DNA of 64,000 nucleotides from the NCBI RefSeq assembly GCF_947495625.1, contig NZ_CANLZW010000012.1:62001-126000 (forward strand), read 5' to 3'. Positions 792-57,119 of this stretch are shown here, one piece after another (position 1 is the first letter of the stretch; each line of letters starts with the position of its first letter). Source of the stretch: an uncultured Cocleimonas sp. (lineage in GTDB: Bacteria; Pseudomonadota; Gammaproteobacteria; Thiotrichales; Thiotrichaceae). Position numbers and translations under genes: made by a program. Under the pieces are notes generated by a model. It saw nothing but the letters and a program-made list of their open reading frames with translations. It was not told the DNA's origin and did not search any database.

Positions 792-829
792 CAATAAAAT
801 TAAAGCTAGTGTATTGAGAAGTGTTTAGT

Positions 830-857
830 GACACCCCCCTACTTATACGTGTTTTTT
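830..857 (-). repeat. G-run dispersed repeat, copy 1 (C-rich strand on +)
   Basis: GACACCCCCCTACTTATA followed by CGTG and a six-T tract. It is a near-perfect copy of the repeat found about 18 times in this window. It lies in the 331-bp gap between the HlyD-type start and the sdhE stop and faces copy 2 (952-980), so the two form an inverted pair with the A/T tracts inside. ACAC and GTGT flanking the core could pair as a weak stem before the T-tract. Confidence 0.85.
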
Positions 858-951
858 AATTCTAAAATAATGAAAAGCACTCCCTGAAAATGCCGTCTTT
901 GAACTTCAATGCTGTCTTATTGTGTTCGACTATCGACTAGTAACTTTCTTT

Positions 952-980
952 AAAAAGTGCCTAAAAGGTAGGGGGTGTCA
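952..980 (+). repeat. G-run dispersed repeat, copy 2, after sdhE
   Basis: A five-A tract, GTGCC, then AAAAGGTAGGGGGTGTCA. It is a slightly diverged copy with one G fewer. It starts about 10 bp past the sdhE stop. Read in the sdh direction it is a C-run followed by CCTA-CCTTT-TAGG, a small possible hairpin, and a T-tract, so it could act as the operon terminator. It pairs with copy 1 in inverted orientation. Confidence 0.8.
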
Positions 981-990
981 TTATTTTTTG

Positions 991-7026: not shown

Positions 7027-7060
7027 TTTTCATTAGAAAATCTAGTTATAAATTTTGAAT

Positions 7061-7095
7061 CATAAAAAAGGGAACATATTGTTCCCTTTTTTATG
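7061..7095. terminator. Bidirectional intrinsic terminator between the ArsR gene and grxD
   Basis: A perfect 15-bp inverted repeat: CATAAAAAAGGGAAC, loop ATATT, GTTCCCTTTTTTATG. The GC-rich core is flanked by A and T tracts on both sides, so it can terminate both convergent genes. Confidence 0.93.
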
Positions 7096-7122
7096 ATTTT
7101 TGCTCAAAGCTTTCTCAGCAAT

Positions 7123-7681: not shown

Positions 7682-7689
7682 AGCTCCAT

Positions 7690-7717
7690 AAAAATCACTT
7701 AAAAGTAGGGGGGTGAC
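7690..7717 (+). repeat. G-run dispersed repeat, copy 3, after dsbB
   Basis: A-tract, TCACTTAA, then AAGTAGGGGGGTGAC. It starts about 24 bp past the dsbB stop, with the C-rich strand and T-tract reading in the dsbB direction. TCAC and GTGA at its ends could form a weak 4-bp stem. Confidence 0.85.
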
Positions 7718-7740
7718 CTAAAAAGTCTAATCAAGAGCCA

Positions 7741-13767: not shown

Positions 13768-13987
13768 TTATCTTTAAAAAATAATAGGATCTAATGATAG
13801 CTATTAAATGGCTATCTTAAGACAGGTTAATATTGCAAAGGGTTATATGAAATTATACTTAAAGATGAGGAGTAGGGTAAAAATAGTGACAAAGAGTAGT
13901 TTATCGTATGTCGATATATACTAATTGTAAAATAGAGCGTATGTATGGATTAGATACGTTATTTAATAACCTTGTAAGAAAAATTAA

Positions 13988-14016
13988 CACACCCCCCTAC
14001 TTATAGGCCATTTTTT
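13988..14016 (-). repeat. G-run dispersed repeat, copy 4, upstream of the FetB-like gene
   Basis: CACACCCCCCTACTTATA, GGCCA and a six-T tract ending 23 bp before the FetB-like ATG. CCTA-CTTA-TAGG can form a tight 4-bp hairpin. The position between divergent genes, with no gene ending toward it, means this copy cannot be an ordinary terminator. Confidence 0.85.
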
Positions 14017-17746: not shown

Positions 17747-19474
17747 ATGATTAATAAAATATCAAATAATAAAAACAGATGGGCAAAACAACTCAATATT
17801 AGCGTTTACATATTGTTAATACTCGCAGGTCTTTCTTTCCTTCAATCTATTAATTCTCCTTTCGATTTTATTAATGAAGCAAAATATTTATCTCAGCCCT
17901 ATGATTTAAAGGGCTTTATGAAAAGTGGAATTTATATTGGTGTTTATATTGCATCTTTAATAGCAGTTGCATTGGCAATTTTTACAAGAAATAAAACGGT
18001 ATTTATTTTTCTAATTTCATTGATATCGGTGGCATACGCTATCGATTTGTTTATTCAATTTGTTGGAAGTAATGAGAAAGGCTTATCAATCGCTACTTTT
18101 TCTCTAGGGATGACTGAGAAGACTAGGGCTAATGATATGTTGTTATTTAAACAACAGCTCATAGAAGCTGCCGCGGTGATTGCCGGATTTGTATTTTTTG
18201 CGATTCTTTCACGTAATGTTTTCTTTAAAAAGTTTCGGGTTAATACCTTTCTCAGTTTGGGTATTTTTATCTTTATGTCCGCAATTACTTTGTTTGTCGT
18301 GTTGAAAATTTTTTCTGTGGTTGCTCAGGCTTTTCCTGCACCAATTAAGGCGATGGCAATTGCATCTGAATACTATTTAGAAAATAAAGCTGAAGAGCCA
18401 AGGGTATTATCTGATGCAGTAATCCCTACACAGAACCCTGAGTATAAAACTATTGTCTGGATCATTGATGAATCAATTGGGGGGCAATATTTATCAGTCA
18501 ATGGGTATGAGAAAGACACAACCCCCTATTTAAAAGAACTTGAGAAGAGCGCAAATAATAATTTTCAAAATTATGGCATCGTGCCTTCTATCGCAAATTG
18601 TTCAGCATCAACTAATTTGATGTTACGAATTGGCTTGAATAGTCATCAAGCAGGGGATTTTAAAGAGAATCTGAAAACACTTCCTACTATTTTTCAATAT
18701 GCTAAACGTGCGGGCTACAAAACTCATTTAATTGATGCTCAAGTCGCACCTGGGCAGTTACAAAATCATCTATCGGTATATGATAAATCTGATATTGATA
18801 ACTTTGTAACCTTCAGCCGTAAGCATATTCCTAACACTCGTGATCAAAAGGTTTTGGAAAGCCTTACAGGAATTTTAGATAATAAAGATAACACCGCTGC
18901 TAAACTTAATTTCATAGTGGTTGTTAAACTCGGAGCACATTGGCCTTATCCCCTGAGTTATCCGATAGATCAGGAGTTTTTTAAACCTGCAACTCGTGAA
19001 AGTTATACCGCCATGATTGGTGTAAATAAGGAGCTGATTCTGAATGCTTACTACAATAGTATTCGTTTTTCAGTAGACAAATTCCTCAAGGAACTCACTG
19101 AAAATAGAAATCTGGATGACAAAGTCATTATCTACACCGCTGATCACGGGCAAACATTGTTCTACAACGATGATCCATTAACACATTGTCATTCAGGCAG
19201 GAAAATACCTATTGATGAATTTAAAGTGCCGTTGATGGTTTTTGCTAATGGTGCACGTGAAAGTTTTAAAAAACCGATTGAAAAAATAAGTGCGCAAGAA
19301 CAAATGTTCCCAACTACATTAAGGTTGATGGGATTTCCGGAAAATATCTATAACCCATATGGGCCGACTTTAGGTACAGGGGTTAACGCTGATTCAATCC
19401 AATCATTTATTATGCTTTCCGGTAAAAAAATTAACATAAAAACAGGCGGAAAGTGGGGGGGTGTCACTGAGTAA
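17747..19474 (+). CDS. Phosphoethanolamine-transferase-like membrane sulfatase-fold enzyme, copy A
   Basis: 575 residues. Five N-terminal membrane segments (to about residue 205) precede a periplasmic alkaline-phosphatase-superfamily domain. Expected motifs are present: WIIDESIGGQYLSVNGYEKDTTPYL (metal site and GYxxxTTP, as in EptA-type enzymes), IANCSASTNLMLRIGL at the expected nucleophile region, KLGAHWPYPL and YTADHGQ (metal-binding Asp-His). Such enzymes move phosphoethanolamine or phosphoglycerol onto lipid A, core or glycans. A paralogue follows at 19596. The last codons (KWGGVTE) are written with dispersed-repeat copy 5. Confidence 0.78.
   Translation: MINKISNNKNRWAKQLNISVYILLILAGLSFLQSINSPFDFINEAKYLSQPYDLKGFMKSGIYIGVYIASLIAVALAIFTRNKTVFIFLISLISVAYAIDLFIQFVGSNEKGLSIATFSLGMTEKTRANDMLLFKQQLIEAAAVIAGFVFFAILSRNVFFKKFRVNTFLSLGIFIFMSAITLFVVLKIFSVVAQAFPAPIKAMAIASEYYLENKAEEPRVLSDAVIPTQNPEYKTIVWIIDESIGGQYLSVNGYEKDTTPYLKELEKSANNNFQNYGIVPSIANCSASTNLMLRIGLNSHQAGDFKENLKTLPTIFQYAKRAGYKTHLIDAQVAPGQLQNHLSVYDKSDIDNFVTFSRKHIPNTRDQKVLESLTGILDNKDNTAAKLNFIVVVKLGAHWPYPLSYPIDQEFFKPATRESYTAMIGVNKELILNAYYNSIRFSVDKFLKELTENRNLDDKVIIYTADHGQTLFYNDDPLTHCHSGRKIPIDEFKVPLMVFANGARESFKKPIEKISAQEQMFPTTLRLMGFPENIYNPYGPTLGTGVNADSIQSFIMLSGKKINIKTGGKWGGVTE
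19438..19466 (+). repeat. G-run dispersed repeat, copy 5, inside the 3' end of a gene
   Basis: A-tract, CAGGCGG, then AAAGTGGGGGGGTGTCA. It encodes the final residues (...KTGGKWGGVTE) of the enzyme at 17747-19474. It is the only in-gene copy read with the G-rich strand as sense. Confidence 0.75.
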
Positions 19475-21299: not shown

Positions 21300-21384
21300 G
21301 TAATTTTAAGCAGAGCTAATAAAAAGTGCCAGATGATCTAAAGCAGTTCAAATAACTGAGTTTAATGTTTATAAAAACGAAACG

Positions 21385-21413
21385 AAAAACTCACTAAAAG
21401 TAGGGGGGTGTGT
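21385..21413 (+). repeat. G-run dispersed repeat, copy 6, upstream of recQ
   Basis: A-tract, CTCACTA, then AAAGTAGGGGGGTGTGT. It ends about 35 bp before the recQ ATG, between two genes on the plus strand. The C-rich strand faces leftward with no minus-strand gene ending there, so this copy also does not fit a terminator role. Confidence 0.85.
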
Positions 21414-21447
21414 TTTAATAACACTCAAATACTAAGCTTCTTTGATA

Positions 21448-24304: not shown

Positions 24305-24506
24305 TGATTCCCTTGTATCACTTGTGCGTTTGTTTAATATATTTAGTTTTATTTATTCCAGCTATATATCTATGACCTAGCTAGATTATCCTAACTTACA
24401 TTAACTATAGTGAAATTTTATTAATTATTCTTTAAATTGTGACCTTTTTAACAAAATATCATTAAATATCAAGATATAGTTAAGTGTTTGATTAATAAAA
24501 CTAACT

Positions 24507-24534
24507 AAAAACCACCTAAAAGTAGGAGGGTGTC
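24507..24534 (+). repeat. G-run dispersed repeat, copy 7, overlapping the ubiB stop codon
   Basis: A-tract, CCACCTA, then AAAGTAGGAGGGTGTCA, one base off the core consensus. The TGACACC end of the repeat supplies the ubiB stop codon TGA. Read in the ubiB direction, CCTA-CTTT-TAGG with outer CC/GG can form a hairpin followed by GTTTTT, a plausible terminator. Confidence 0.8.
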
Positions 24535-26188
24535 ATTTTCTTATTATTCCTATTATAAGAAGCGTGATACCAATCAATCCAAGTCCCCAGGTGATTGGTG
24601 AAGCATTTGAGGAAACCAGCAGTAATGGTGAGCTTGACAGTACTGCACTCACTACTAATACACCGCCACTAATTGTTAGCGTAGTTCTTTGATTGGCTTT
24701 TTTGATTTCTTCACGAAGCGCTTGCAATTGGACTGATTCGGTTTCTGTGTTGCTATTTTTATCGTGAATCTGACGAATGACTTCATTAATCATCACCGGC
24801 ATATGCGGTAATTGCTCAATGAATTTGGGTAAATTATCCTTAGCCCCATTGAATAATGATCGAATCCCGGATTGTTCATCCATCCAGCGCTGTATAAAAG
24901 GTTTAGCCGTTACCCATAAATCAAGATCGGGATATAACTCACGTCCCATGCCTTCAATATTTAATAATGTTTTTTGAAGTAAAACCAATTGTGGTTGTAC
25001 TTCCATATTAAAACGTCGCGCAGTCTGGAACAGTCTCAGCAATAGTTTGCCGTATGAAATATCCTTGATAGGCAATTGGAAAATCGGCTCACAGACGGTG
25101 CGAATAGCTGCTTCAAATTCACTGGCTTTCGTATGAGATGGTACCCAGCCAGATTCAATATGGACTTCTGCTACACGTTTATAATCGCGGTTAAAAAAGG
25201 CGTGTAAGTTTTCTGCCAGATAACGTTGATCCTGTGCTTCCAAAGATCCCATAATGCCAAAGTCTACGCCGATAAAGGTAGGATCTTTAGGATTGCTGAT
25301 ATCGATGAAGATATTTCCAGGATGCATATCTGCATGGAAAAAATTATGCGTTAACGCTTGGGTAAAGAAGATATCAACAGCCCGTTCGCCGAGTACCTTC
25401 ATGTCGACACCATTGGCGTGTAGTTGCTTGATATCTCCGGCAGGAACACCATAGATGCGCTCCATAACCATTACATTTTCAGTACAGTAATCCCAATACA
25501 CATCAGGTACATAAAGATCTTTGGTGCCAGAATGATTACGTCTTAACTGACTGGCATTAGCGGCTTCACGACCTAAATCTAGCTCGTCAAAGATTACCTT
25601 TTCATAGTCCTGTACCACTTCCACAGTTCGTAAACGTTTGCCGACGGCACTGAATCGATTCACCATTTTTGCGATAAACAACATCAGGTCTATATCGTGA
25701 CGAATGGTTTTTTCTATACCGGGTCGAACGACTTTGACAATCGCTTCCTTACCATCTTTTAATGTAGCAGTATGAACCTGTGCAATGGATGCTGAAGCGA
25801 GTGGTGTTTCATCGAATGCTTCAAACAGTTCGTTTACCGGTTTGCCTAAAGACTTTTCAATAATTTCACGGGCTAATTTGCCTGAAAAAGGTGGAACATT
25901 ATCTTGAAGCTTAGCAAGCTCATCGGCCAAATCATCCGGCAACATATCGCGCCTAGTTGAGAGTACCTGTCCAAATTTGACGAATACGGGTCCAAGATCT
26001 TCTAACGCTTTTCTGATGCGTTCTCCGCGAGGAGCACGCTCTTCTTTTTTCCAGTTCCATGGAGAAATGTGATAAATAAAACGTAAAGGACGGAAGGCAG
26101 GAATCGCGTAGATTAACTCATCGAGATTGTGACGAATCAGGACACGATTAATGATAAATAGCCGATAGAGCTGAGAGAAAAGATTCAT
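24533..26188 (-). CDS. ubiB: UbiB, ubiquinone biosynthesis regulatory protein kinase-like
   Basis: 551 residues, an ABC1/ADCK-family atypical kinase needed for ubiquinone synthesis. The family KxGQ motif is in GPVFVKFGQVLSTRRDMLP. The nucleotide-binding PLASASIAQVHTA (Ala-rich loop replacing the Gly-rich loop) and the catalytic-like FHADMHPGNIFID and GVDFGIMG follow. Two C-terminal hydrophobic segments (TISGGVLVVSAVLSS, GLGLIGITLLIIGII) anchor it in the membrane. It is the last gene of ubiE-ubiJ-ubiB, 8 bp after ubiJ. Confidence 0.96.
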   Translation of the reverse strand: MNLFSQLYRLFIINRVLIRHNLDELIYAIPAFRPLRFIYHISPWNWKKEERAPRGERIRKALEDLGPVFVKFGQVLSTRRDMLPDDLADELAKLQDNVPPFSGKLAREIIEKSLGKPVNELFEAFDETPLASASIAQVHTATLKDGKEAIVKVVRPGIEKTIRHDIDLMLFIAKMVNRFSAVGKRLRTVEVVQDYEKVIFDELDLGREAANASQLRRNHSGTKDLYVPDVYWDYCTENVMVMERIYGVPAGDIKQLHANGVDMKVLGERAVDIFFTQALTHNFFHADMHPGNIFIDISNPKDPTFIGVDFGIMGSLEAQDQRYLAENLHAFFNRDYKRVAEVHIESGWVPSHTKASEFEAAIRTVCEPIFQLPIKDISYGKLLLRLFQTARRFNMEVQPQLVLLQKTLLNIEGMGRELYPDLDLWVTAKPFIQRWMDEQSGIRSLFNGAKDNLPKFIEQLPHMPVMINEVIRQIHDKNSNTETESVQLQALREEIKKANQRTTLTISGGVLVVSAVLSSSPLLLVSSNASPITWGLGLIGITLLIIGIIRK

Positions 26189-30043: not shown

Positions 30044-30058
30044 CTGCAAATAGAATGC

Positions 30059-30084
30059 AAAAAAGCCCTATAAGTAGGGGGTGT
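30059..30084 (+). repeat. G-run dispersed repeat, copy 8 (left arm of a palindrome)
   Basis: A-tract, GCCCTA, then TAAGTAGGGGGTGTA. It pairs with copy 9 to form a long hairpin between convergent lipA and darP. Confidence 0.88.
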
Positions 30085-30092
30085 AGTTAAAT

Positions 30093-30121
30093 GACACCCC
30101 CCTACTTATAGGGCTTTTTTT
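30093..30121 (-). repeat. G-run dispersed repeat, copy 9 (right arm of a palindrome)
   Basis: GACACCCCCCTACTTATA, GGGC and a seven-T tract: a full-strength copy with six Cs. Partner of copy 8. Confidence 0.88.
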
Positions 30122-30679: not shown

Positions 30680-31601
30680 GGTTGTATTCTAGCGCAGGAA
30701 GGGCTTTTATGGCTATGGGATTGATAGATTTCTGTGAACTGCGTTGCCATAAATACTTCATGCTTTTAAGGGTGATTGGGTTTGTACTGCTGTTATAAAA
30801 GCTGATTTTACCCAAATGGTTCTGTTTTTCGCCAAAAGGATCAGTCTTTCGATCTACGATTCTTTCCAGATTATACTGTTTCAAAACACGTTGTAATTGC
30901 AATGCCACCGGTTTACCTGTTTCTAGAATCATTATATTTCTATTATTGAGATTATTATTCTTGGTAATGTTGCTTTGTGGACTATGACTATCGTTAATAA
31001 TGTCTCGGATGGCATCGATTAAGAAAGGGTAATGTGTACAGCCGAGAATTAAAGCATCAACACCCTCTGTAAGTAGGGGGGTGATGTAGTGTTTCAATAA
31101 AGTTTTTGTCTTATCGGACTCAAGTTCACATGCTTCTACTTGTTCTACCAAGCCTTGGCATGCTTGGGCTAGCACGCGTTTTCCCTCCGCATATTGTTCA
31201 GTTAAGCCTAACAGTCGTTCACTGTTTATTGTACGTTGAGTCGCTAGAACCCCGATAATACCATTTCTGCTTAGTTTGCTTGCAGGCTTGATAGCTGGTT
31301 CTAAACCAATCATAGGAACATCAAGTTTTTCTCTTAAAAGATCAATAGCTTCAGCCGTCGCAGTATTGCAGGCAACAACAATGGCTTTTACACCCTGATC
31401 TAAAAGGAATTCTGCAACTTCAAGAGAGCGATCTCGGACATATTCTGCACTGTTATCGCCATAAGGCGCGTGGGCGGAATCGCCAACATAGATTAGATTT
31501 TCATGGGGAAGAAGTTGGTGGATTTCCCGAAGTACGGAAAGTCCACCAAGTCCTGAATCAAAAACACCTATTGGGCAAGGATCACCCAAACTGAAAGACA
31601 T
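30672..31601 (-). CDS. murI: Glutamate racemase
   Basis: 309 residues. MurI makes D-glutamate for peptidoglycan. Catalytic Cys are in VVACNTATAEA and ILGCTHYPFL, with substrate-binding FDSGLGGLSVL and YVGDSAHAPYGD. The C-terminal part has an unusual low-complexity stretch (SPQSNITKNNNLNNRN) inside the last third, longer than usual. The segment HYITPLLTEGVDALIL is encoded by the C-rich strand of repeat copy 10, with no length change relative to the usual PLxxxGVDTLVLGCTHY pattern. It overlaps darP. Confidence 0.95.
   Translation of the reverse strand: MSFSLGDPCPIGVFDSGLGGLSVLREIHQLLPHENLIYVGDSAHAPYGDNSAEYVRDRSLEVAEFLLDQGVKAIVVACNTATAEAIDLLREKLDVPMIGLEPAIKPASKLSRNGIIGVLATQRTINSERLLGLTEQYAEGKRVLAQACQGLVEQVEACELESDKTKTLLKHYITPLLTEGVDALILGCTHYPFLIDAIRDIINDSHSPQSNITKNNNLNNRNIMILETGKPVALQLQRVLKQYNLERIVDRKTDPFGEKQNHLGKISFYNSSTNPITLKSMKYLWQRSSQKSINPIAIKALPALEYNHD
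31058..31085 (+). repeat. G-run dispersed repeat, copy 10, inside murI
   Basis: GTAAGTAGGGGGGTGAT, an exact match to the 14-base core, within the murI reading frame (sense: ATCACCCCCCTACTTAC, encoding ITPLLT). The A-tract side is lost (CACCCTCT instead). Confidence 0.75.
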
Positions 31602-33553: not shown

Positions 33554-33582
33554 AAAAAAGTGCCCGTAAGTGGGGAGGTGGC
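33554..33582 (+). repeat. G-run dispersed repeat, copy 11 (diverged)
   Basis: Six-A tract, GTGCCCG, then TAAGTGGGGAGGTGGC. It has two substitutions in the core. It lies 84 bp past the stop of the sulfite-oxidase-like gene, with the C-rich strand and T-tract in that gene's direction; GCC and GGGC could pair. Confidence 0.75.
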
Positions 33583-33665
33583 TTTTCTAGGCTCACCAAG
33601 AGCCAAGAAATTCCATCGTAGATCCCAGAATAAATAACGTTCTTTAATCCCCAGCAACAATAGAT

Positions 33666-36276: not shown

Positions 36277-36969
36277 TTAAGTACTAACTCCCAAATACCG
36301 ACTACTAATATCATCAGTCAACGCTTGTGGTGCATCATTCCAGACAGATTGGCCTTTCTCCAATATGAAGCATTGATCGCATACCGGGAGTAATTCCTTA
36401 AGAGTTTTATCGACGAGTAATATCGATTGCCCGTTTTCTCTCAGTCTATGAATAGCAGCCCAGATTTCTTGCCTGACTACAGGGGCAAGTCCTTCAGTGG
36501 CTTCATCTAAAATCAATAACTTTGGATTGGTTAATAAAGCGCGGCCAATCGCGAGCATTTGTTGTTCTCCACCGGATAAAGTCGCGGCAGATTGTTTGCT
36601 GCGTTCTTCTAATCGCGGGAACAGCTGATGAATTTTCTGCATATCCCATTGGCCCTTTCTTTCTGTCGCTAACAGGTTTTCTTCGACCGTTAAATTAGCA
36701 AAACAACGGCGTCCTTCTGGGACGAGCCCGATTCCTTTTCGTGCAACGACATGCGTTGGCAACTTCGCCAGATTTTCACCGTTTAATGAAATAGTGCCTG
36801 TAAGTGGGGGGGTGAGGTTACAAATAGCGCGTATTGTGGTTGATTTACCTACGCCGTTACGCCCCATTAGAGCTACAACTTCGCCGGGATTGATCTCAAG
36901 ACTGACATCAAACAATGCCTGCGATTTGCCATAGAAGACGGCTATGTGTTCGACTTTGAGCAAAGACAT
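36277..36969 (-). CDS. livF: Branched-chain amino-acid-type ABC transporter ATPase
   Basis: 230 residues, LivF type. Walker A is GRNGVGKST, the signature is LSGGEQQMLAIGRAL and Walker B is LLILDEATEGLAP. The stop is followed by a 52-bp gap to the shared terminator, and the start directly follows livG. The segment AICNLTPPLTGTISLNG is encoded by repeat copy 12; its length equals that of E. coli LivF at the same place, so the repeat has not inserted residues. The substrate may be branched-chain amino acids or a similar small solute. Confidence 0.92.
   Translation of the reverse strand: MSLLKVEHIAVFYGKSQALFDVSLEINPGEVVALMGRNGVGKSTTIRAICNLTPPLTGTISLNGENLAKLPTHVVARKGIGLVPEGRRCFANLTVEENLLATERKGQWDMQKIHQLFPRLEERSKQSAATLSGGEQQMLAIGRALLTNPKLLILDEATEGLAPVVRQEIWAAIHRLRENGQSILLVDKTLKELLPVCDQCFILEKGQSVWNDAPQALTDDISSRYLGVST
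36789..36816 (+). repeat. G-run dispersed repeat, copy 12, inside livF
   Basis: ATAGTGCCTG then TAAGTGGGGGGGTGAG. Both the AGTGC flank and the core are kept within a reading frame (sense strand encodes LTPPLTGTIS). Confidence 0.78.
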
Positions 36970-37754
36970 TAGTCATCCCCCAGATAGGCTTTTCTTACTT
37001 CTGGTGAAGCTTTGATTTGATCGGGTGAACCAGAGAAAATCAGTTTGCCATAAACCAATACAGAGATGCGATCAGAAAGCTGGAATACTGCATCCATATC
37101 GTGTTCGATAAGTAAAATAGGTATTTCTGCTTTGAGGTTTTGCAGAAAGTTGATCAAACCTTGTGTACTGGCAGGGTCCAAGCCCGCCATTGGTTCATCC
37201 AGTAATAATACTTTGGGTTGTAAGGCGAGGGCGCAGGCTACTTCTAATTCGCGGCGTTTACCGTGGGATAGTTGTGAAGCCAGCGTGTCTTTAAACTCGC
37301 TGATGTGTAATCGATCCAGAATCTTGTCGGCTTCGTCTATCAGGCTTTGGTCACTGGCTGCCGGTTTCCAGAAACGATAGCTAGAACCCTGACGCGCCTG
37401 AACCGCGAGCATCACATTGCGTTGCGCGCTTAGTTCCATGGCGAGGCAGGATACCTGAAAACTGCGGCCTAAACCTAAGCGGCTACGTTTTGCCACGTTC
37501 ATATTGGTGATATTAGTGCCGTTAAGCGTGATAGAACCAGAATCTGGTTTTATCCATCCTGCGATTTGTCCAACCAGGGTAGATTTGCCCGCACCATTGG
37601 GACCGATTAAAGTATGGATTTCTCCTTGTTTAAGGTCGCAATTAATGGAGTCACTAACGGTTAAAGCCCCATAACGCTTGGTGAGGTTTTCTATTTTAAG
37701 GACAGTACTGCCCAATTTAGTACTATTTGATGTATCAACGGTGGAATTAGTCAT
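36969..37754 (-). CDS. livG: Branched-chain amino-acid-type ABC transporter ATPase
   Basis: 261 residues from the ATG at 37754, which overlaps the livM stop (ATGACTAA) and has GGGAG upstream; a longer frame to 37772 is less likely. Walker A is GPNGAGKST. The LivG-type signature is LSHGKRRELEVACALA, and Walker B is VLLLDEPMAGLDP. It forms the ATPase pair with LivF for the LivH/LivM channel. Position and overlaps indicate a five-gene operon livK-livH-livM-livG-livF. Confidence 0.92.
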   Translation of the reverse strand: MTNSTVDTSNSTKLGSTVLKIENLTKRYGALTVSDSINCDLKQGEIHTLIGPNGAGKSTLVGQIAGWIKPDSGSITLNGTNITNMNVAKRSRLGLGRSFQVSCLAMELSAQRNVMLAVQARQGSSYRFWKPAASDQSLIDEADKILDRLHISEFKDTLASQLSHGKRRELEVACALALQPKVLLLDEPMAGLDPASTQGLINFLQNLKAEIPILLIEHDMDAVFQLSDRISVLVYGKLIFSGSPDQIKASPEVRKAYLGDD

Positions 37755-38742
37755 GTTGCTTTTCTCCCACAACCATTTTCATCAAACCGCCATTGGCGTA
37801 GAGCACTACAATGAGTAACACCAGACCAAGGAATAACTTCCAGTGTTCGGTATAACCGCCGATAAAGGTTTCGAGCAATACAAACAATGTAGCACCTAAA
37901 ATGGGGCCAGATAAGCGACCTACGCCACCCAGTAATATAAAGATAATGATCTCGCCTGACATCTGCCAACTGAGCATGTCAGGGCTGACAAAGCGGTTTA
38001 AATCCGCAAACAACGCGCCAGCGATGCCTGTGATCACGGCTGAAATCACAAAAGCCGTCAGTTTGATTGGATAAGGTCTGATGCCAACCGTTGCTAAACG
38101 CACATCATTCATTCTGGCAACTTGCAATGCGGTACCAAATCGCGAGCGTATGATGCGCGAACTCAGAAATACAGTTAACAGCAATACAGTAAAACAGATC
38201 AGGAAGAACACCAATTCATTATCAGTATCGTTCCCCAGAAACTGATTTCTGCTAGAAATTAATAAACCATCTTCTCCGCCATAATCGGGCCATGAAATCG
38301 CAAAGTAATACACCATTTGTGCAAAGGAGAGGGTGATCATTATGAAATAGACGCCGCTAGTACGCAGCGAAATCAAACCAATAAATAAGGCGAGAAGGGC
38401 ACAAATAATAATGACAAATAGCCAGATCGTAAGCATCTGATTGGTGCTGTCTAAGCCTGCAATAAATGAAGTGTTTTCACTAAAATGCATGGCTGAAATA
38501 CCAGCTATATATCCGCCAATACCGAAAAATGCGGCATGGCCAAGACTTACCATACCGCCATATCCCAATGCGAGATTAAGACCAACACCGGCAATGGCAA
38601 AAATAACAACGCGAGAGACTAAATTGACGTAATAGCCTTGATCTAGCCAATAGGTGACTAAGGCGGTAACAAAAATTAAGCCAAGGATAATCAGGTTGAG
38701 AGCCTTTTCTTTAAAGCCTTTTTGATGAGTAGAATTAAGCAT
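37747..38742 (-). CDS. livM: Branched-chain amino-acid-type ABC transporter permease
   Basis: 331 residues with about nine membrane segments. The LivM signature GLNLALGYGGMVSLGHAAFFGIGGY is near residues 54-80, and the cytoplasmic EAA-like loop GRxGTALQVARMNDVRLATVGI follows (here FGTALQVARMNDVRLATVGI). It overlaps livH by 8 bp and livG by 8 bp. It forms the transmembrane channel with LivH. Confidence 0.93.
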   Translation of the reverse strand: MLNSTHQKGFKEKALNLIILGLIFVTALVTYWLDQGYYVNLVSRVVIFAIAGVGLNLALGYGGMVSLGHAAFFGIGGYIAGISAMHFSENTSFIAGLDSTNQMLTIWLFVIIICALLALFIGLISLRTSGVYFIMITLSFAQMVYYFAISWPDYGGEDGLLISSRNQFLGNDTDNELVFFLICFTVLLLTVFLSSRIIRSRFGTALQVARMNDVRLATVGIRPYPIKLTAFVISAVITGIAGALFADLNRFVSPDMLSWQMSGEIIIFILLGGVGRLSGPILGATLFVLLETFIGGYTEHWKLFLGLVLLIVVLYANGGLMKMVVGEKQHD

Positions 38743-39667
38743 TGGCTGGGAATAATCCTTGTGGACGAATAGCCAGAATCACAGCCATTAAAATATAAAC
38801 CAGTACCGAGGCGAGTGATGCACTCAGCGTTGCAACCTGACTGTTGTCGATAAACAATGCCAGAATATTAGGTAAGAAAACGCGTCCTAATGTATCGACC
38901 AAACCAACTAGAATAGAAGCGACCAAAGCACCTTTGACCGAACCGATACCGCCAATAACAATCACCACCAAGGCAAGTATTAACACAGGTTCGCCCATCC
39001 CAACTTCTACTGAATAGAGTGTGCTGACCAGTGAGCCAGCCAAGCCCGCAAGTGCCGCGCCTAATGCAAAAATAAGAGAGTAAATCACACGAATGTTTAC
39101 GCCTAGAGCGGCGATCATCTCACGATCGGATTCTCCAGCACGAATACGCATACCGAGCCGTGTTTTGGTAATTAATAAATAAAGTGAGTATGCAATAATC
39201 AACCCAATCGCAATGATAACCAGGCGGTAAATAGGGTAGGAACTATTGCTATCCTCCTCGAAAGAGAGGGGTATAGAGCCTGATAACCAGCTTGGAATGC
39301 TGAGATACAACGGTGATGAGCCAAATATCCAGCTAGTGCCTTCAGATATGATTAAAATTAGCGCGAAGGTGGCGAGCACTTGATCGAGATGATCGCGGTC
39401 GTAGAGTTTACGAATCACAACAACCTCGATAATCAAACCGGCAATCGCTGCACCGACAAACCCTGCCAGCAATCCAAGTAAGAAAGAGCCCGTCATAGTA
39501 GTGATTGTGGCGCAACAGAAAGCGCCAATCATATACAGTGAGCCGTGGGCGAGGTTGATCAAACCCATCACGCCAAATACCAGCGTCAAACCAGCCGACA
39601 TCAGGAACAATGTCATTCCGAGTTGTAAGCCGTTTAGGAGTTGCTCAAGAAAGAGGGCAGCTGTCAT
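38735..39667 (-). CDS. livH: Branched-chain amino-acid-type ABC transporter permease
   Basis: 310 residues with eight or nine membrane segments. The start LNGLQLGMTLFLMSAGLTLVFGVMGLINLAHGSLYMIGAF is the LivH signature, and the cytoplasmic loop LGMRIRAGESDREMIAALGVNI is the ATPase-coupling segment. It is separated from livK by 142 bp that hold a large perfect palindrome (39709-39782), so livK may be expressed at a different level from the downstream genes. Confidence 0.93.
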   Translation of the reverse strand: MTAALFLEQLLNGLQLGMTLFLMSAGLTLVFGVMGLINLAHGSLYMIGAFCCATITTMTGSFLLGLLAGFVGAAIAGLIIEVVVIRKLYDRDHLDQVLATFALILIISEGTSWIFGSSPLYLSIPSWLSGSIPLSFEEDSNSSYPIYRLVIIAIGLIIAYSLYLLITKTRLGMRIRAGESDREMIAALGVNIRVIYSLIFALGAALAGLAGSLVSTLYSVEVGMGEPVLILALVVIVIGGIGSVKGALVASILVGLVDTLGRVFLPNILALFIDNSQVATLSASLASVLVYILMAVILAIRPQGLFPANA

Positions 39668-39710
39668 GGATTTCGTATTTGAGGTTTATTGGTTAATTAG
39701 TAAATAAAAA

Positions 39711-39739
39711 GTCACCCCCCTACTTATGAGCACTTTTTT
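39711..39739 (-). repeat. G-run dispersed repeat, copy 13
   Basis: GTCACCCCCCTACTTAT, GAGC, ACTTTTTT. Identical in sequence to copy 14 in opposite orientation. Confidence 0.9.
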
Positions 39740-39751
39740 ATAAATTGAGTT

Positions 39752-39780
39752 AAAAAAGTGCTCATAAGTAGGGGGGTGAC
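39752..39780 (+). repeat. G-run dispersed repeat, copy 14, after livK
   Basis: AAAAAAGTGCTC then ATAAGTAGGGGGGTGAC. It is the exact reverse complement of copy 13 and lies 29 bp past the livK stop. Confidence 0.9.
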
Positions 39781-39808
39781 TTAGTAATACAATGGAATTA
39801 TAAATACT

Positions 39809-40978
39809 TTATTTCATCACACAATCTTTAGCGTAAGCATCCTGATGGTTTTCAAGGCCTTTGCTGATAATTTTATTGGTCAAAACATCACCTTCTTTAA
39901 CCACTTCTCGAACGTAAATGTCCTGAATTGGGAAGTTGTTATTTCCAAATTTGAAATCACCACGTGGCGATGCAAAGTCAGCTGCTTTAAGCGCTTTACG
40001 GAATGCATCTTTGTCACTCACTGGAGACTTCTTCAGTGCAGATAAAATCAGATTAGCCGCATCGTAACCCTGACTTGAGTAAAGAGATGGAAGTTTGTTG
40101 TATTCTTTCTGATACGCTGCAACAAAGGTTTTATTCGCTTCGTTATCGATATCCTTATTCCATTGTGATGAGTTTTTAACACCAAGTGCTGCATCGCCAA
40201 CTGCACCCAGAATACCCTGGTCGAATGAGAACGCAGGTCCCATAACCGGGATTTTTGAACCAGATTGTGAATACTGTTTCATGAATGCGATACCCATGCC
40301 ACCCGGAAGGAAGAAGAATACAGAATCAGCGCCCGATGCTTTAATTTTAGAAATCTCTACCGCGTAGTCTTTTTGACCGAGTTTTGTGTAGATTTCACCC
40401 GCAACTTCGCCTTTATAGAAGCGTTTGTAACCTGTTAATGCATCTTTACCCGCTGGGTAGTTTGGCGCCAGAATAAAGGTCTTTTTAAGGTCTACACCGT
40501 TAGCGTAGTTACCCATTGCTTCGTGTAAATTATCATTCTGCCATGCGACATTGAATGAATTTTCGTGACACCCTTTGCCTGCTAATGCCGAAGGACCTGC
40601 ATTTGGGCTGACGTAAAAAACGCCTTTCTTAACCGCTGAAGGAATAACAGCCATCGCCAGATTAGAGAAAATAATACCGGTAAGAATATCGACTTTATCT
40701 TTTTGAATAAACTTGTCTGCAATTTGTACCGCTTTCGCTGGTTTACGGCCATCGTCTTCAATAAGAAGCTCAATATCTTTATTGTCTGACATTTTTAGTG
40801 CTAACTTAAAACCATCTCTGACATCTTTACCAAGACTAGATCCACCACCAGAAAGCGTCGTAATCATACCGATTTTAGTGGTATCCGCTTGAGCCATAGT
40901 TGTCGCTGAAGTAAAGATGAGAGCCAGACTGGTCATGGCGATTGTTTTAGCTGAAAGTTTTTTTACCGATGAAATCAT
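39809..40978 (-). CDS. livK: Periplasmic branched-chain amino-acid-type binding protein
   Basis: 389 residues. A signal peptide (MISSVKKLSAKTIAMTSLALIFTSATTMAQA) precedes a type I periplasmic binding fold: IGMITTLSGGGSSLGKDVRDGFKLAL, IEDDGRKPAKAVQIADKFI, VDILTGIIFSNLAMAV. The subfamily resembles ABC substrate-binding proteins for aromatic or branched-chain compounds, so the ligand need not be leucine. First gene of the operon, with the palindrome directly downstream. Confidence 0.88.
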   Translation of the reverse strand: MISSVKKLSAKTIAMTSLALIFTSATTMAQADTTKIGMITTLSGGGSSLGKDVRDGFKLALKMSDNKDIELLIEDDGRKPAKAVQIADKFIQKDKVDILTGIIFSNLAMAVIPSAVKKGVFYVSPNAGPSALAGKGCHENSFNVAWQNDNLHEAMGNYANGVDLKKTFILAPNYPAGKDALTGYKRFYKGEVAGEIYTKLGQKDYAVEISKIKASGADSVFFFLPGGMGIAFMKQYSQSGSKIPVMGPAFSFDQGILGAVGDAALGVKNSSQWNKDIDNEANKTFVAAYQKEYNKLPSLYSSQGYDAANLILSALKKSPVSDKDAFRKALKAADFASPRGDFKFGNNNFPIQDIYVREVVKEGDVLTNKIISKGLENHQDAYAKDCVMK

Positions 40979-47101: not shown

Positions 47102-47130
47102 AAAAAAGTGATTAAAAGTAGGGGGGTGAC
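47102..47130 (+). repeat. G-run dispersed repeat, copy 15, after kbl
   Basis: AAAAAAGTGATTAA then AAGTAGGGGGGTGAC. Left arm of an inverted pair with copy 16. Confidence 0.88.
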
Positions 47131-47138
47131 TTATAACA

Positions 47139-53023: not shown

Positions 53024-53955
53024 TAACGATACCCTTTGAGCCATTCATTGCGTTGTTCGTAAACGGTTTGCCACTCTTTAAGAGTTTCTAATTTATCTTT
53101 TTTGAATAGAGATAAAAGCTTCAATGAGAGTAGTTTGTTTAGAACATGTAACTGCAATAAACCTTTATGTATCGGCTTTTCCCAGGATTTAGCGTGCTTG
53201 TTGATCAGTTCAGCTTTGCCTTTTAACAGTTTTAGCATTTTGCCCGATAAATTCGTTTCGCTGACACCACCATGATGAATGATTTTAGCGTCAGGGGTAA
53301 CACGTGGTTGATAGCCTTTTTTGATTGCCCGTATACAGTAATCTGCTTCTTCTGCATACATGAAAAAGGTTTCATCGAGCCCTTGTAAATCTTCCCATAA
53401 GTGGCGGGGTGTCAAAAAGAAACAGCCAGTCACGACATCGACTTCTCGCTCGCTTTTTCTATCCCAGCAACCATAATTGTCATGGTTAAAAAAGCAGCTT
53501 TTATTAAAGGCTTTGCTTAATCCCAAGGCACTGAATAACAGTGTTTTAAAAGATAATCTAGCACGAGCGTTATTAGGGTTAAGGCTTAAATCGTTATTCA
53601 GTGTAATACCACCCCAAACGCCAGCTTTAGGCGTACTTTGGGCGTATTCAAAAAGTTTGTCGATTGCGCCTTCCAGAATCACGGTATCGGGATTGAGTAA
53701 CAGGATGTAATCACTATTGCTGGCTTTTGTACCAACATTGACGCCACCGGCAAAACCAAGATTGGCACCTGTCTGGATGATTTCAACTTCAGGAAATTCT
53801 GAGGCGATTAGTTCAACCGAATTATCCTTAGAGTCGTTATCGACCATGATAATTCGAAAAGAAGTCTTTTTGGTTTCTTCGTAAACTGATGCAATAGCGC
53901 GTTTTGTGTATTCAGCAGTATTGTACGAGACTAAAATTATATCAATCTTGCTCAT
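53023..53955 (-). CDS. Family 2 glycosyltransferase (rhamnosyltransferase-like)
   Basis: 310 residues with GT-A motifs IILVSYNTAEYTKRAIASVYEE, VDNDSKDNSVELI, NLGFAGGVNVG and LLLNPDTVI (DxD-like). FLTPRHLWEDLQGLDETFFMYAEEADYCIRA is the acceptor-side signature of the rhamnosyltransferase-type subfamily. Its FFLTPRHL codons coincide with repeat copy 17. A C-terminal basic tail follows. The start overlaps the acetyltransferase stop by 14 bp. Confidence 0.87.
   Translation of the reverse strand: MSKIDIILVSYNTAEYTKRAIASVYEETKKTSFRIIMVDNDSKDNSVELIASEFPEVEIIQTGANLGFAGGVNVGTKASNSDYILLLNPDTVILEGAIDKLFEYAQSTPKAGVWGGITLNNDLSLNPNNARARLSFKTLLFSALGLSKAFNKSCFFNHDNYGCWDRKSEREVDVVTGCFFLTPRHLWEDLQGLDETFFMYAEEADYCIRAIKKGYQPRVTPDAKIIHHGGVSETNLSGKMLKLLKGKAELINKHAKSWEKPIHKGLLQLHVLNKLLSLKLLSLFKKDKLETLKEWQTVYEQRNEWLKGYR
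53394..53414 (+). repeat. G-run dispersed repeat, copy 17, inside a glycosyltransferase gene
   Basis: CCCATAAGTGGCGGGGTGTCA: 15 of 17 core positions match. The sense strand encodes LTPRHL in a conserved place of the enzyme. Weaker than the other copies, with no A-tract. Confidence 0.55.
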
Positions 53956-55725: not shown

Positions 55726-57119
55726 GGCTGAGTGGCTTCTTTAGGAAGTGTTAATAGTTTATGTGCTGCGAATAGTGCGATTATCAAAACTAGTAATGTG
55801 GCATTCGCTACAAGTGTTGCAAAAGCAGCACCTTCAATACCATGGCTCTGGATAAAAATAATATTACACACAACGTTCACCACAAAAGCAGTGACAAGTA
55901 TGTAATTTAGATATCTTACTTTTTCACGGATAATAAACATAAACGAAAAGGTGATGGTTGCTGCTCTGAAAAGCTGCGCGATTAATAAAAGTCCTAATGC
56001 GGATTTCGCCACATCATATTCCTTACCGAAAGCTATTAAAATCCAATCTGATAATAAATACATGAAAACAGTGACAGACAGAACGACAGTAATGACCAAA
56101 GCGGTTGATTGCCAGAAAAATGAATGTAATTTATCTTTGTTGTGGCTAAATATATTTAATAATCTGGGGTAAATGGTTGCTTCCATCGCCTGCAAAAAAA
56201 ATAAAACAATATAAGAGATTTTCGAAGCAACACTGTATTCAGCGACTTGTTCGTTGGCTAAAAACCAGCCAACCATGATGGTATCAGTAAATATCATCAG
56301 AAAAGAAATAATCGATACGGGTGCTAGCGGTAGAGATTTTGAAATAAGTGCGTATAAGTGGGGGGGTGTAGTTGTTTTTGAAACTGTTTCTAATAGTGAA
56401 GAATGTGTTTCAATGTTTCCTGCTGCTATGGTTTTATTGGCAAATGATCGATACGTATAGATAATTGCAATAACTCCCGCCAATAATATGGATGCGGTAT
56501 AGATATAAAATACATACTGATCTGTTGAAAAGTAATTCCAGAATAATCCAATCAATACTAAAAAAGTGATCGCTGTGAGTGCATTTTGTCCGAGTACACC
56601 CATCACTGTTTTTTTAATCGCTTTTAAATAAGTGCTGTTTAAAATAACCAGATTAAAAAACAAGATGCCCAGGCTGGCTACAACTAGTTCCGTGATACTA
56701 ACGTTTGGTAGCTTCTCGTTAATGTTGCTATTAGCAATATGATCAAAAAAGAAATTAGCCTGAATGTAATGACTGGATAGCGCCCATAAAGCCATGAAAA
56801 TAAATGATAAAAACAACACGGCTTTTAAGCTGGCTTTAAAGAATCCTTCATGAAAATCAAGATCTTCCTGGTGAGCGCTGGCAACTTCTTTCATTAATAA
56901 TTGATCGATGCCAAGCCGGCTGATTAACGCAATACCTGTAATAAACGTCATTAACAATAAAATATCACCAGCAGATGATTTTGGTAGTTGATTAGTGATA
57001 ATCATTACGACTAGAAAATTTAAAGCAACGCCTACAAACCTTGCAATCAATGACCATAGGCTCTGTTTGAGCAGCGGGTTATTTAATACTTTGCTGAATA
57101 GCTTTTTAAGAGCACTCAT
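55722..57119 (-). CDS. Wzx-type polysaccharide flippase
   Basis: 465 residues with about fourteen membrane segments; SLIARFVGVALNFLVVMIITNQLPKSSAGDILLLMTFITG opens the protein. It is expected to flip the undecaprenyl-linked repeat unit. The loop SKTTTPPHLYALISKS, between segments, is encoded by repeat copy 18. It lies 10 bp downstream of the PssE-like gene and overlaps the polymerase. Confidence 0.85.
   Translation of the reverse strand: MSALKKLFSKVLNNPLLKQSLWSLIARFVGVALNFLVVMIITNQLPKSSAGDILLLMTFITGIALISRLGIDQLLMKEVASAHQEDLDFHEGFFKASLKAVLFLSFIFMALWALSSHYIQANFFFDHIANSNINEKLPNVSITELVVASLGILFFNLVILNSTYLKAIKKTVMGVLGQNALTAITFLVLIGLFWNYFSTDQYVFYIYTASILLAGVIAIIYTYRSFANKTIAAGNIETHSSLLETVSKTTTPPHLYALISKSLPLAPVSIISFLMIFTDTIMVGWFLANEQVAEYSVASKISYIVLFFLQAMEATIYPRLLNIFSHNKDKLHSFFWQSTALVITVVLSVTVFMYLLSDWILIAFGKEYDVAKSALGLLLIAQLFRAATITFSFMFIIREKVRYLNYILVTAFVVNVVCNIIFIQSHGIEGAAFATLVANATLLVLIIALFAAHKLLTLPKEATQP
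56342..56369 (+). repeat. G-run dispersed repeat, copy 18, inside the flippase gene
   Basis: AAATAAGTGCGTA then TAAGTGGGGGGGTGTA. It keeps the AAGTGC flank and a one-base-off core in a reading frame (sense encodes TTTPPHLYALIS). Confidence 0.8.

Follow-up and report, generated by a model that had tools for sequence, protein, structure and literature searches.

The window analysed here is a 64,000-nt stretch from the genome of an uncultured Cocleimonas sp. (NCBI RefSeq assembly GCF_947495625.1, contig NZ_CANLZW010000012.1, forward-strand positions 62,001 to 126,000), and on its minus strand carries an operon whose Pfam matches are, in order, to a periplasmic binding protein, a pair of branched-chain permeases and a pair of ABC ATPases. 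The names livK-H-M-G-F were assigned from these families and the gene order (Table 1). The 141-nt gap between livK and livH holds a palindrome whose 32-nt arms are 100% complementary around a 10-nt loop. A sequence-only reading of the same DNA had described just this, a perfect palindrome made of two repeat copies that face each other within an operon and after the gene for the binding protein, and both the structure and its setting are confirmed. In a listing of ten inverted pairs from the window (minimum arm length 18 nt, partners no more than 200 nt apart), no other perfect pair is as long. A 25-mer from the arm occurs exactly at both arms and once more, with three mismatches, at position 47108, against an expectation of 0.00 per shuffled window (100 shuffles, up to three mismatches). 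Folded as RNA, the palindrome region reaches -56.7 kcal/mol versus -16.2 (sd 3.1) in 200 shuffles (z -13.3). Our terminator scan was restricted to loops of 3-8 nt and did not list the palindrome, and Rfam returned 27 matches, every one under the gathering score and mostly to microRNA models, as the palindrome is a long hairpin. Besides, nothing resembling a promoter turned up between livK and livH in a simple scan; a separate promoter there had been named beforehand as grounds for abandoning the proposed role of the hairpin.

Table 1. The liv operon, its palindrome and the remaining element copies of the window.
Feature	Position	Strand	Basis or remark
Element copy	827..858	-	profile hit
Element copy, core shifted one base	951..982	+	profile hit
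Element copy	7689..7720	+	profile hit
Element copy	13985..14016	-	profile hit
Element copy	19437..19468	+	profile hit
Element copy	21384..21415	+	profile hit
Element copy	24506..24537	+	profile hit
Element copy, first of '+-' pair, convergent genes either side	30058..30089	+	profile hit, inverted-pair listing
Element copy, second of '+-' pair	30090..30121	-	profile hit, inverted-pair listing
Element copy, low score (20.9), within ORF	31057..31088	+	profile hit
Element copy	33554..33585	+	profile hit
livF, ATPase	36277..36969	-	ORF + Pfam
Element copy within livF frame, antisense to gene	36788..36819	+	profile hit
livG, ATPase	36969..37772	-	ORF + Pfam
livM, permease	37747..38742	-	ORF + Pfam
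livH, permease	38735..39667	-	ORF + Pfam
T-rich tract TTTTTATTT	39702..39710	-	hairpin foot, livK-to-livH direction; first two T within arm
Left arm, element copy 1	39709..39740	-	profile hit 39708-39739, G-rich strand -
10-nt loop	39741..39750		no kinship to loops of other three species
Right arm, element copy 2	39751..39782	+	profile hit 39752-39783, G-rich strand +
livK, branched-chain amino-acid binding protein	39809..40978	-	ORF + Pfam
Element copy	47102..47133	+	profile hit
Element copy, low score (20.8), within ORF	53385..53416	+	profile hit
Element copy, within ORF	56342..56373	+	profile hit

Each arm is one copy of an element of ∼32 bp with the core AAGTAGGGGGGTG, and the 'two identical repeat copies' of the sequence-only reading belong to a large genome-wide family. 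A 32-column profile was built from the window's genome (G000) and a relative, Cocleimonas flava DSM 24830 (G003), which represent two species of one genus. At 20 bits or more, this profile matched 440 times in 1.6 Mb and never in the reversed control, while between 8 and 20 bits there were 21 matches versus 9 in the control, few enough to conclude that degenerate copies are rare. The consensus consists of A6, then five bases of loose conservation, often GTGCC, followed by YNW, AAGTAGGGGGGTG, N and CTTT. An enlarged sample yielded 142 matches from G000 (0.526 Mb) and 499 from C. flava (1.80 Mb), which extrapolates to ∼1,200 copies per genome. Self-folding of single copies was considered and rejected: among 431 distinct copies, the strongest couplings join neighbouring columns, and candidate stem pairs fall outside the 25 strongest. 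The family behaves as a DNA site recognised by its sequence, not as a self-folding RNA, and the element may have a dedicated binding protein.

The element is restricted to part of the genus Cocleimonas, as far as the sampled genomes reach. Exact cores number 777 in G000, 721 in C. flava, 453 in G004, 388 in G011, 232 in G008 and 74 in G007; six other Cocleimonas genomes hold 0-2, and 51 further genomes of the order hold none. In a sample of 369 genomes from the class that did not include C. flava, eight had a match, with more than one in G000 only, and in a 15-mer scan of GTDB genomes C. flava contributed most stretches among the matches listed, the other records one each.

Single copies are mostly intergenic, more often near gene 3' ends, and occur in either orientation. 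Of the 641 matches in the enlarged sample, 94 lie inside crude ORF calls, and in the first sample 6/140 exact cores do so, in DNA called 86% coding. Among gaps of at least 40 bp, a copy is present in 141/228 convergent, 290/868 tandem and 60/260 divergent ones, and singles in tandem gaps have no preferred orientation with respect to transcription (149:136). Positions are fixed between species: of 77 orthologous gaps in G000 and C. flava, 24 are occupied in both species and 51 in neither, with two occupied in G000 only and none in C. flava only (P 6e-18), and the orientation of singles agrees in 18/18 cases. Six inverted pairs of G000 correspond to four pairs and two singles in C. flava. In many orthologous gaps the core is unchanged amid diverged surroundings and a diverged element spacer, though a few show similarity over their full length; we take the pattern to reflect constraint on the core.

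Copies no more than 60 bp apart are inverted without exception (43/43; 31 '-+' and 12 '+-'), in contrast to singles, which are strongly co-oriented. The '-+' pairs have the liv arrangement, with their A-tracts on the inside; 19 occupy tandem gaps and 12 convergent ones, and none was found in the 60 divergent gaps that hold an element (P 0.023). Spacings between their partners concentrate at 0-2 bp (15/31) and 9-12 bp (10/31), two clusters about one helical turn apart that could reflect helical phasing or loop size. Of 14 variable columns, 9.1 agree between the arms of 28 '-+' pairs and 6.4 between random copies. Exact-core pairs, many with matched spacer variants, number 24 in G000, 24 in C. 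flava, six in G004 (two of them identical), three in G008 and one in G011. Such matched arms can result from template switching between inverted repeats, which the accessible part of PMC8794818 describes as able to perfect stems without selection. In the window, the '+-' pair at 30058-30121 carries its A-tracts outside and has 23-nt perfect arms, the reverse of the liv arrangement, and at 7058-7098 perfect 19-nt arms around a 3-nt loop form another inverted repeat, without kinship to the element.

At the liv locus itself, LivK of C. flava, G008, G011 and G010 is 98%, 88%, 87% and 87% identical to the G000 ortholog, and the inverted pair is present in the livK-livH gap of G000, C. flava, G008 and G011 and absent from that of G010. 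Comparing the arms in relatives, as had been suggested, revealed a stem kept in the four species (CACCCCCC[TC]ACTT / AAGT[AG]GGGGGGTG) around mutually unrelated loops. The 17 core pairs of this stem are preserved in full and 68/68 stem cells are paired, with one C-to-T in C. flava leaving a G-U pair and two pairs altered on both sides (U-A/A-U and U-A/C-G). The covariation signal is modest, given four related sequences: its score was reached by 18/500 shuffles, and the count of two both-side-changed pairs by 370/500. Because the pair sits in the same place in C. flava, G008 and G011, it predates these species, and the 'recent duplication' proposed from the sequence has to be given up. Gene conversion between the copies, proposed alongside it, fits the agreement of '-+' arms. 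The liv pair is old, then, and its arms look homogenised, for which gene conversion and template switching would both be compatible explanations. The livK-livH gap of the element-poor G010 (L123) holds an unrelated inverted repeat starting CGTCATTC, which resembles CGTC-tagged REPs in being CGTC-like; it was compared with these by their description alone, in the part of PMC3733652 available, and lies in the same gap without relation to the element.

We consider it somewhat more probable than its negation (roughly 0.55) that the livK-livH palindrome, two facing copies of an intergenic element specific to Cocleimonas, acts as an mRNA hairpin that protects livK at its 3' end. Transcribed as part of livK-livHMGF, the inverted pair would fold into a ∼32-bp hairpin right after livK, with a U-rich tract coming next. 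This hairpin would most likely shield the 3' end of the livK mRNA, in the manner of malE-malF, and may also end part of the transcripts, the outcome being that more binding protein is made than membrane parts. For this reading speak the perfect arms and their RNA fold, the four-species stem with its two pairs altered on both sides, the longer T-runs on the livH side, the lack of '-+' pairs in divergent gaps, the different hairpin repeat that G010 has in this gap and the malEFG precedent; against it stand the modest covariation, the missing T bias of tandem '-+' pairs and the ability of template switching to perfect stems. The mechanism put forward earlier, a hairpin that raises livK over livHMGF, is plausible, and the hairpin itself is conserved. 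According to the accessible part of PMC5927463, a structure between malE and malF protects malE in the E. coli malEFG operon, and in E. coli ABC operons with differential decay the stabilised gene is that of the substrate-binding subunit. The liv hairpin is likewise stable, repeat-derived and located directly after the binding-protein gene of an ABC transporter; it differs from the malE-malF hairpin in belonging to another repeat family, and its protective effect is a putative one.

Termination deserves separate mention. Beyond the liv stem, the livH side has T-runs of 5, 5, 8 and 6 (G000, C. flava, G008 and G011, counted by eye) and the other side shorter ones (2, 2, 4 and 4, likewise by eye), so that the locus may be read as a candidate intrinsic terminator, a G+C-rich stem with a U-tract directly after it, in four species. 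Over 17 tandem '-+' pairs, T-runs do not differ between downstream and upstream (2.8 vs 2.6, P 0.90), and pairs are therefore not in general directional terminators. Together with the even orientation of tandem singles, this led us to reject directional intrinsic termination as the role of all copies.

A different side of the family emerges on the scale of the chromosome. In C. flava, a dif-like site lies at position 116880 of contig C2, with two mismatches to the E. coli dif sequence, and dnaA lies at 968.7 kb of contig C1. The orientation of element copies flips at this site: within C2:1-300 kb, we counted 18+/8- to its left and 8+/38- to its right (P 2e-5), the nearest copies being + at -572 and - at +3232. 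The corresponding counts in G000 are 7+/1- left of dif and, to the right, 27-/5+ up to 141 kb followed by 6+/1-. For a 940-kb sample of C. flava (C2, C3 and three stretches of C1), the leading strand was taken from dif and GC skew, on C3 and C1, whose contigs are unordered, from GC skew; 201/263 copies and 188/237 singles are leading. Intergenic base composition predicts 57% leading (P 1e-12 against the observed count) and was rejected as the sole cause of the polarity. Near-complete polarity over the whole replichore was rejected as well, as the counts on sampled stretches disagree. One stretch (L079, C. flava C1:710001-730000) has ten copies in 20 kb, all + and opposite to the strand assumed from GC skew.

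The Rag motif of E. coli is linked to FtsK. In the part of PMC2031905 at hand, this motif is given as RGNAGGGS, with a skew that changes sharply at the terminus; the part of PMC2680272 available covers KOPS and FtsK-gamma. The core of the element contains AGTAGGGG, an RGNAGGGS octamer, which is absent from 199/641 matches, and the consensus does not contain GGGNAGGG. On the dif side of C. flava, polarity depends on this octamer. Among the singles there (C2, C3 and C1 0-380 kb), leading and lagging copies stand at 157:22 with the octamer and 44:28 without it (P 6.5e-6); the ratio without it is what base composition would give (P 0.55), and the variant AGTAGGGGGG stands at 153:20 versus 17:13 for AGTGGGGGGG (P 1e-4). 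Part of this effect could be mimicked by a strand-specific mutation bias at the fourth base of the core. Octamers outside the element are also polar in the 940-kb sample (119:24, versus 160:32 inside), and it follows that 192 of 335 octamers lie within the element.

These counts invite the reading that the element is kept mainly for an FtsK-orienting octamer of the KOPS/Rag type, with singles directing FtsK to dif and the liv pair as a by-product, a serious possibility that nonetheless stays short of probable. As with KOPS (GGGNAGGG) and Rag, the core holds a signal octamer (RGNAGGGS, in the consensus itself), and copies are oriented to dif with a change of leading-strand skew there; unlike them, the element embeds its octamer in a conserved intergenic unit of ∼32 bp, its polarity is weak near the origin, and its recognition by FtsK is putative. 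An FtsK-gamma domain is present in 12/12 genomes of the genus and matches solved FtsK-gamma chains over its whole length, yet it is near-identical in species with and without the element. Polarity is weak over the half nearer the origin: at C1 380-870 kb, singles that bear the octamer stand at 44:32 and the others at 22:28, while octamers outside the element stand at 57:17 by the leading strand assumed there. Nor are such outside octamers leading-biased past dnaA (4:6 in C. flava C1 from 990 kb, 17:20 in G000 C1). Given the weak polarity near dnaA and the near-identical FtsK-gamma of element-less species, a role of FtsK is something that we only infer. Further points against this reading are the GT variant AGGTGGGGGG, which is polar without the octamer (11:2; a small group, contrary to a simple octamer rule), the small octamer contrast in G000 alone (46:12 for octamer-bearing singles vs 13:7 for those without), the loss of the octamer from the liv copies of G008 and G011, and the 32 conserved bases, which an 8-bp signal leaves unexplained.

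Alternatively, single and paired copies might end transcripts in both directions, for instance through a bound protein acting as roadblock, and so replace ordinary terminators. Copy density would suit this, falling from convergent (3.78 per kb) over tandem (1.91) to divergent gaps (0.87). So would the shortage of ordinary terminators once the element is masked: 37/258 in tandem gaps versus 55.8 (sd 4.9) expected for gap length, 54/244 strand readings in convergent gaps versus 63.8 (sd 4.1), and 21/98 in divergent gaps versus 23.9 (sd 3.5). However, when a random 32-nt mask is laid over element-free gaps, the tandem difference vanishes (62/456 vs 33/258, P 0.82); this control is a harsh one, but it leaves the replacement effect insecure. 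For G001, an element-poor relative, the trend falls short of significance (6/11 vs 6/26, P 0.12) in an underpowered comparison, and some gaps hold a copy together with an ordinary-looking terminator. On balance we doubt this account.

More improbable is a signal of the DUS/USS type, spread by biased transformation, whose inverted pairs came to serve as hairpins. Neisserial DNA uptake sequences, described in the available part of PMC2397512 as mostly intergenic and often forming inverted repeats in terminators, share with the element its high copy number, sharp consensus, mostly intergenic placement and inverted pairs. The conserved element is, however, longer than the 10-12 nt of a DUS, one would not expect such sequences to show an octamer-dependent polarity towards dif, and a role in uptake would be putative.

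A REP/REPIN or another miniature mobile repeat without host function can be dismissed as very improbable, for Y1 transposase is absent from 5/6 element-bearing genomes (G000 has four matches) and present in 6/6 element-poor ones, and this distribution, together with the missing stem covariation, rules out REP/RAYT membership. Like GTAG-tagged REPs and REPINs, the element is short and intergenic, contains GTAG, forms inverted doublets, lies mostly at gene 3' ends and differs greatly in copy number among related genomes. A GTAG REP unit as described in the accessible part of PMC3733652 has GTAG at one end and its own stem-loop, whereas in the element conservation runs on past GTAG (GGGGGTGNCTTT) and no stem follows. 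Inverted doublets do occur in extragenic space, yet most copies are undecayed singles, in contrast to REPINs, in which doublets prevail and singlets are decayed (PMC3116915, in the part available). Near the four Y1 matches of G000, element copies occur at about background density (stretch L002 has two). The rarity of degenerate copies and the agreement of positions and orientations between species (24 shared against 2 unshared) likewise speak against mobility.

Returning to the proposed livK hairpin, a conserved hairpin derived from a lineage-specific repeat is in itself not far from what is already known; it contributes one more example, present in four species, of such a structure between a binding-protein gene and permease genes. 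The repeat family with its octamer-dependent dif polarity is the unusual part. We tentatively suggest, as a conjecture with the odds against it, that a genus-restricted intergenic repeat took over much of chromosome polarity, its copies held in fixed places and contributing more than half of the RGNAGGGS octamers in 940 kb of C. flava, those of the terminus half kept pointing at dif, and that facing pairs serve as mRNA hairpins at gene ends. If true, one DNA word would serve both segregation and transcript ends, perhaps via a protein that reads all 32 bp, and polar segregation signals would be seen to arise from an interspersed repeat and not octamer by octamer inside genes. The family offers a natural experiment on chromosome polarity, in which one element is present in very many copies, a single base seems to decide the orientation constraint, and sister species have nearly the same FtsK recognition domain without the element. 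Titles and abstract openings in the literature covered, which leaves out most subscription journals, contained no Cocleimonas repeat of this kind, and within the same coverage the available part of PMC3116915 reports no KOPS-bearing repeat.

Some copies have another left half, CGTAATATCATTC, beside a block like 'cataaattctatttacgt...aaaaacaaaaa', as if fused to a second repeat; examples lie in stretches L081 (near 14962) and L084 (near 12982) and on G000 C1 near 106.8 and 109.1 kb.
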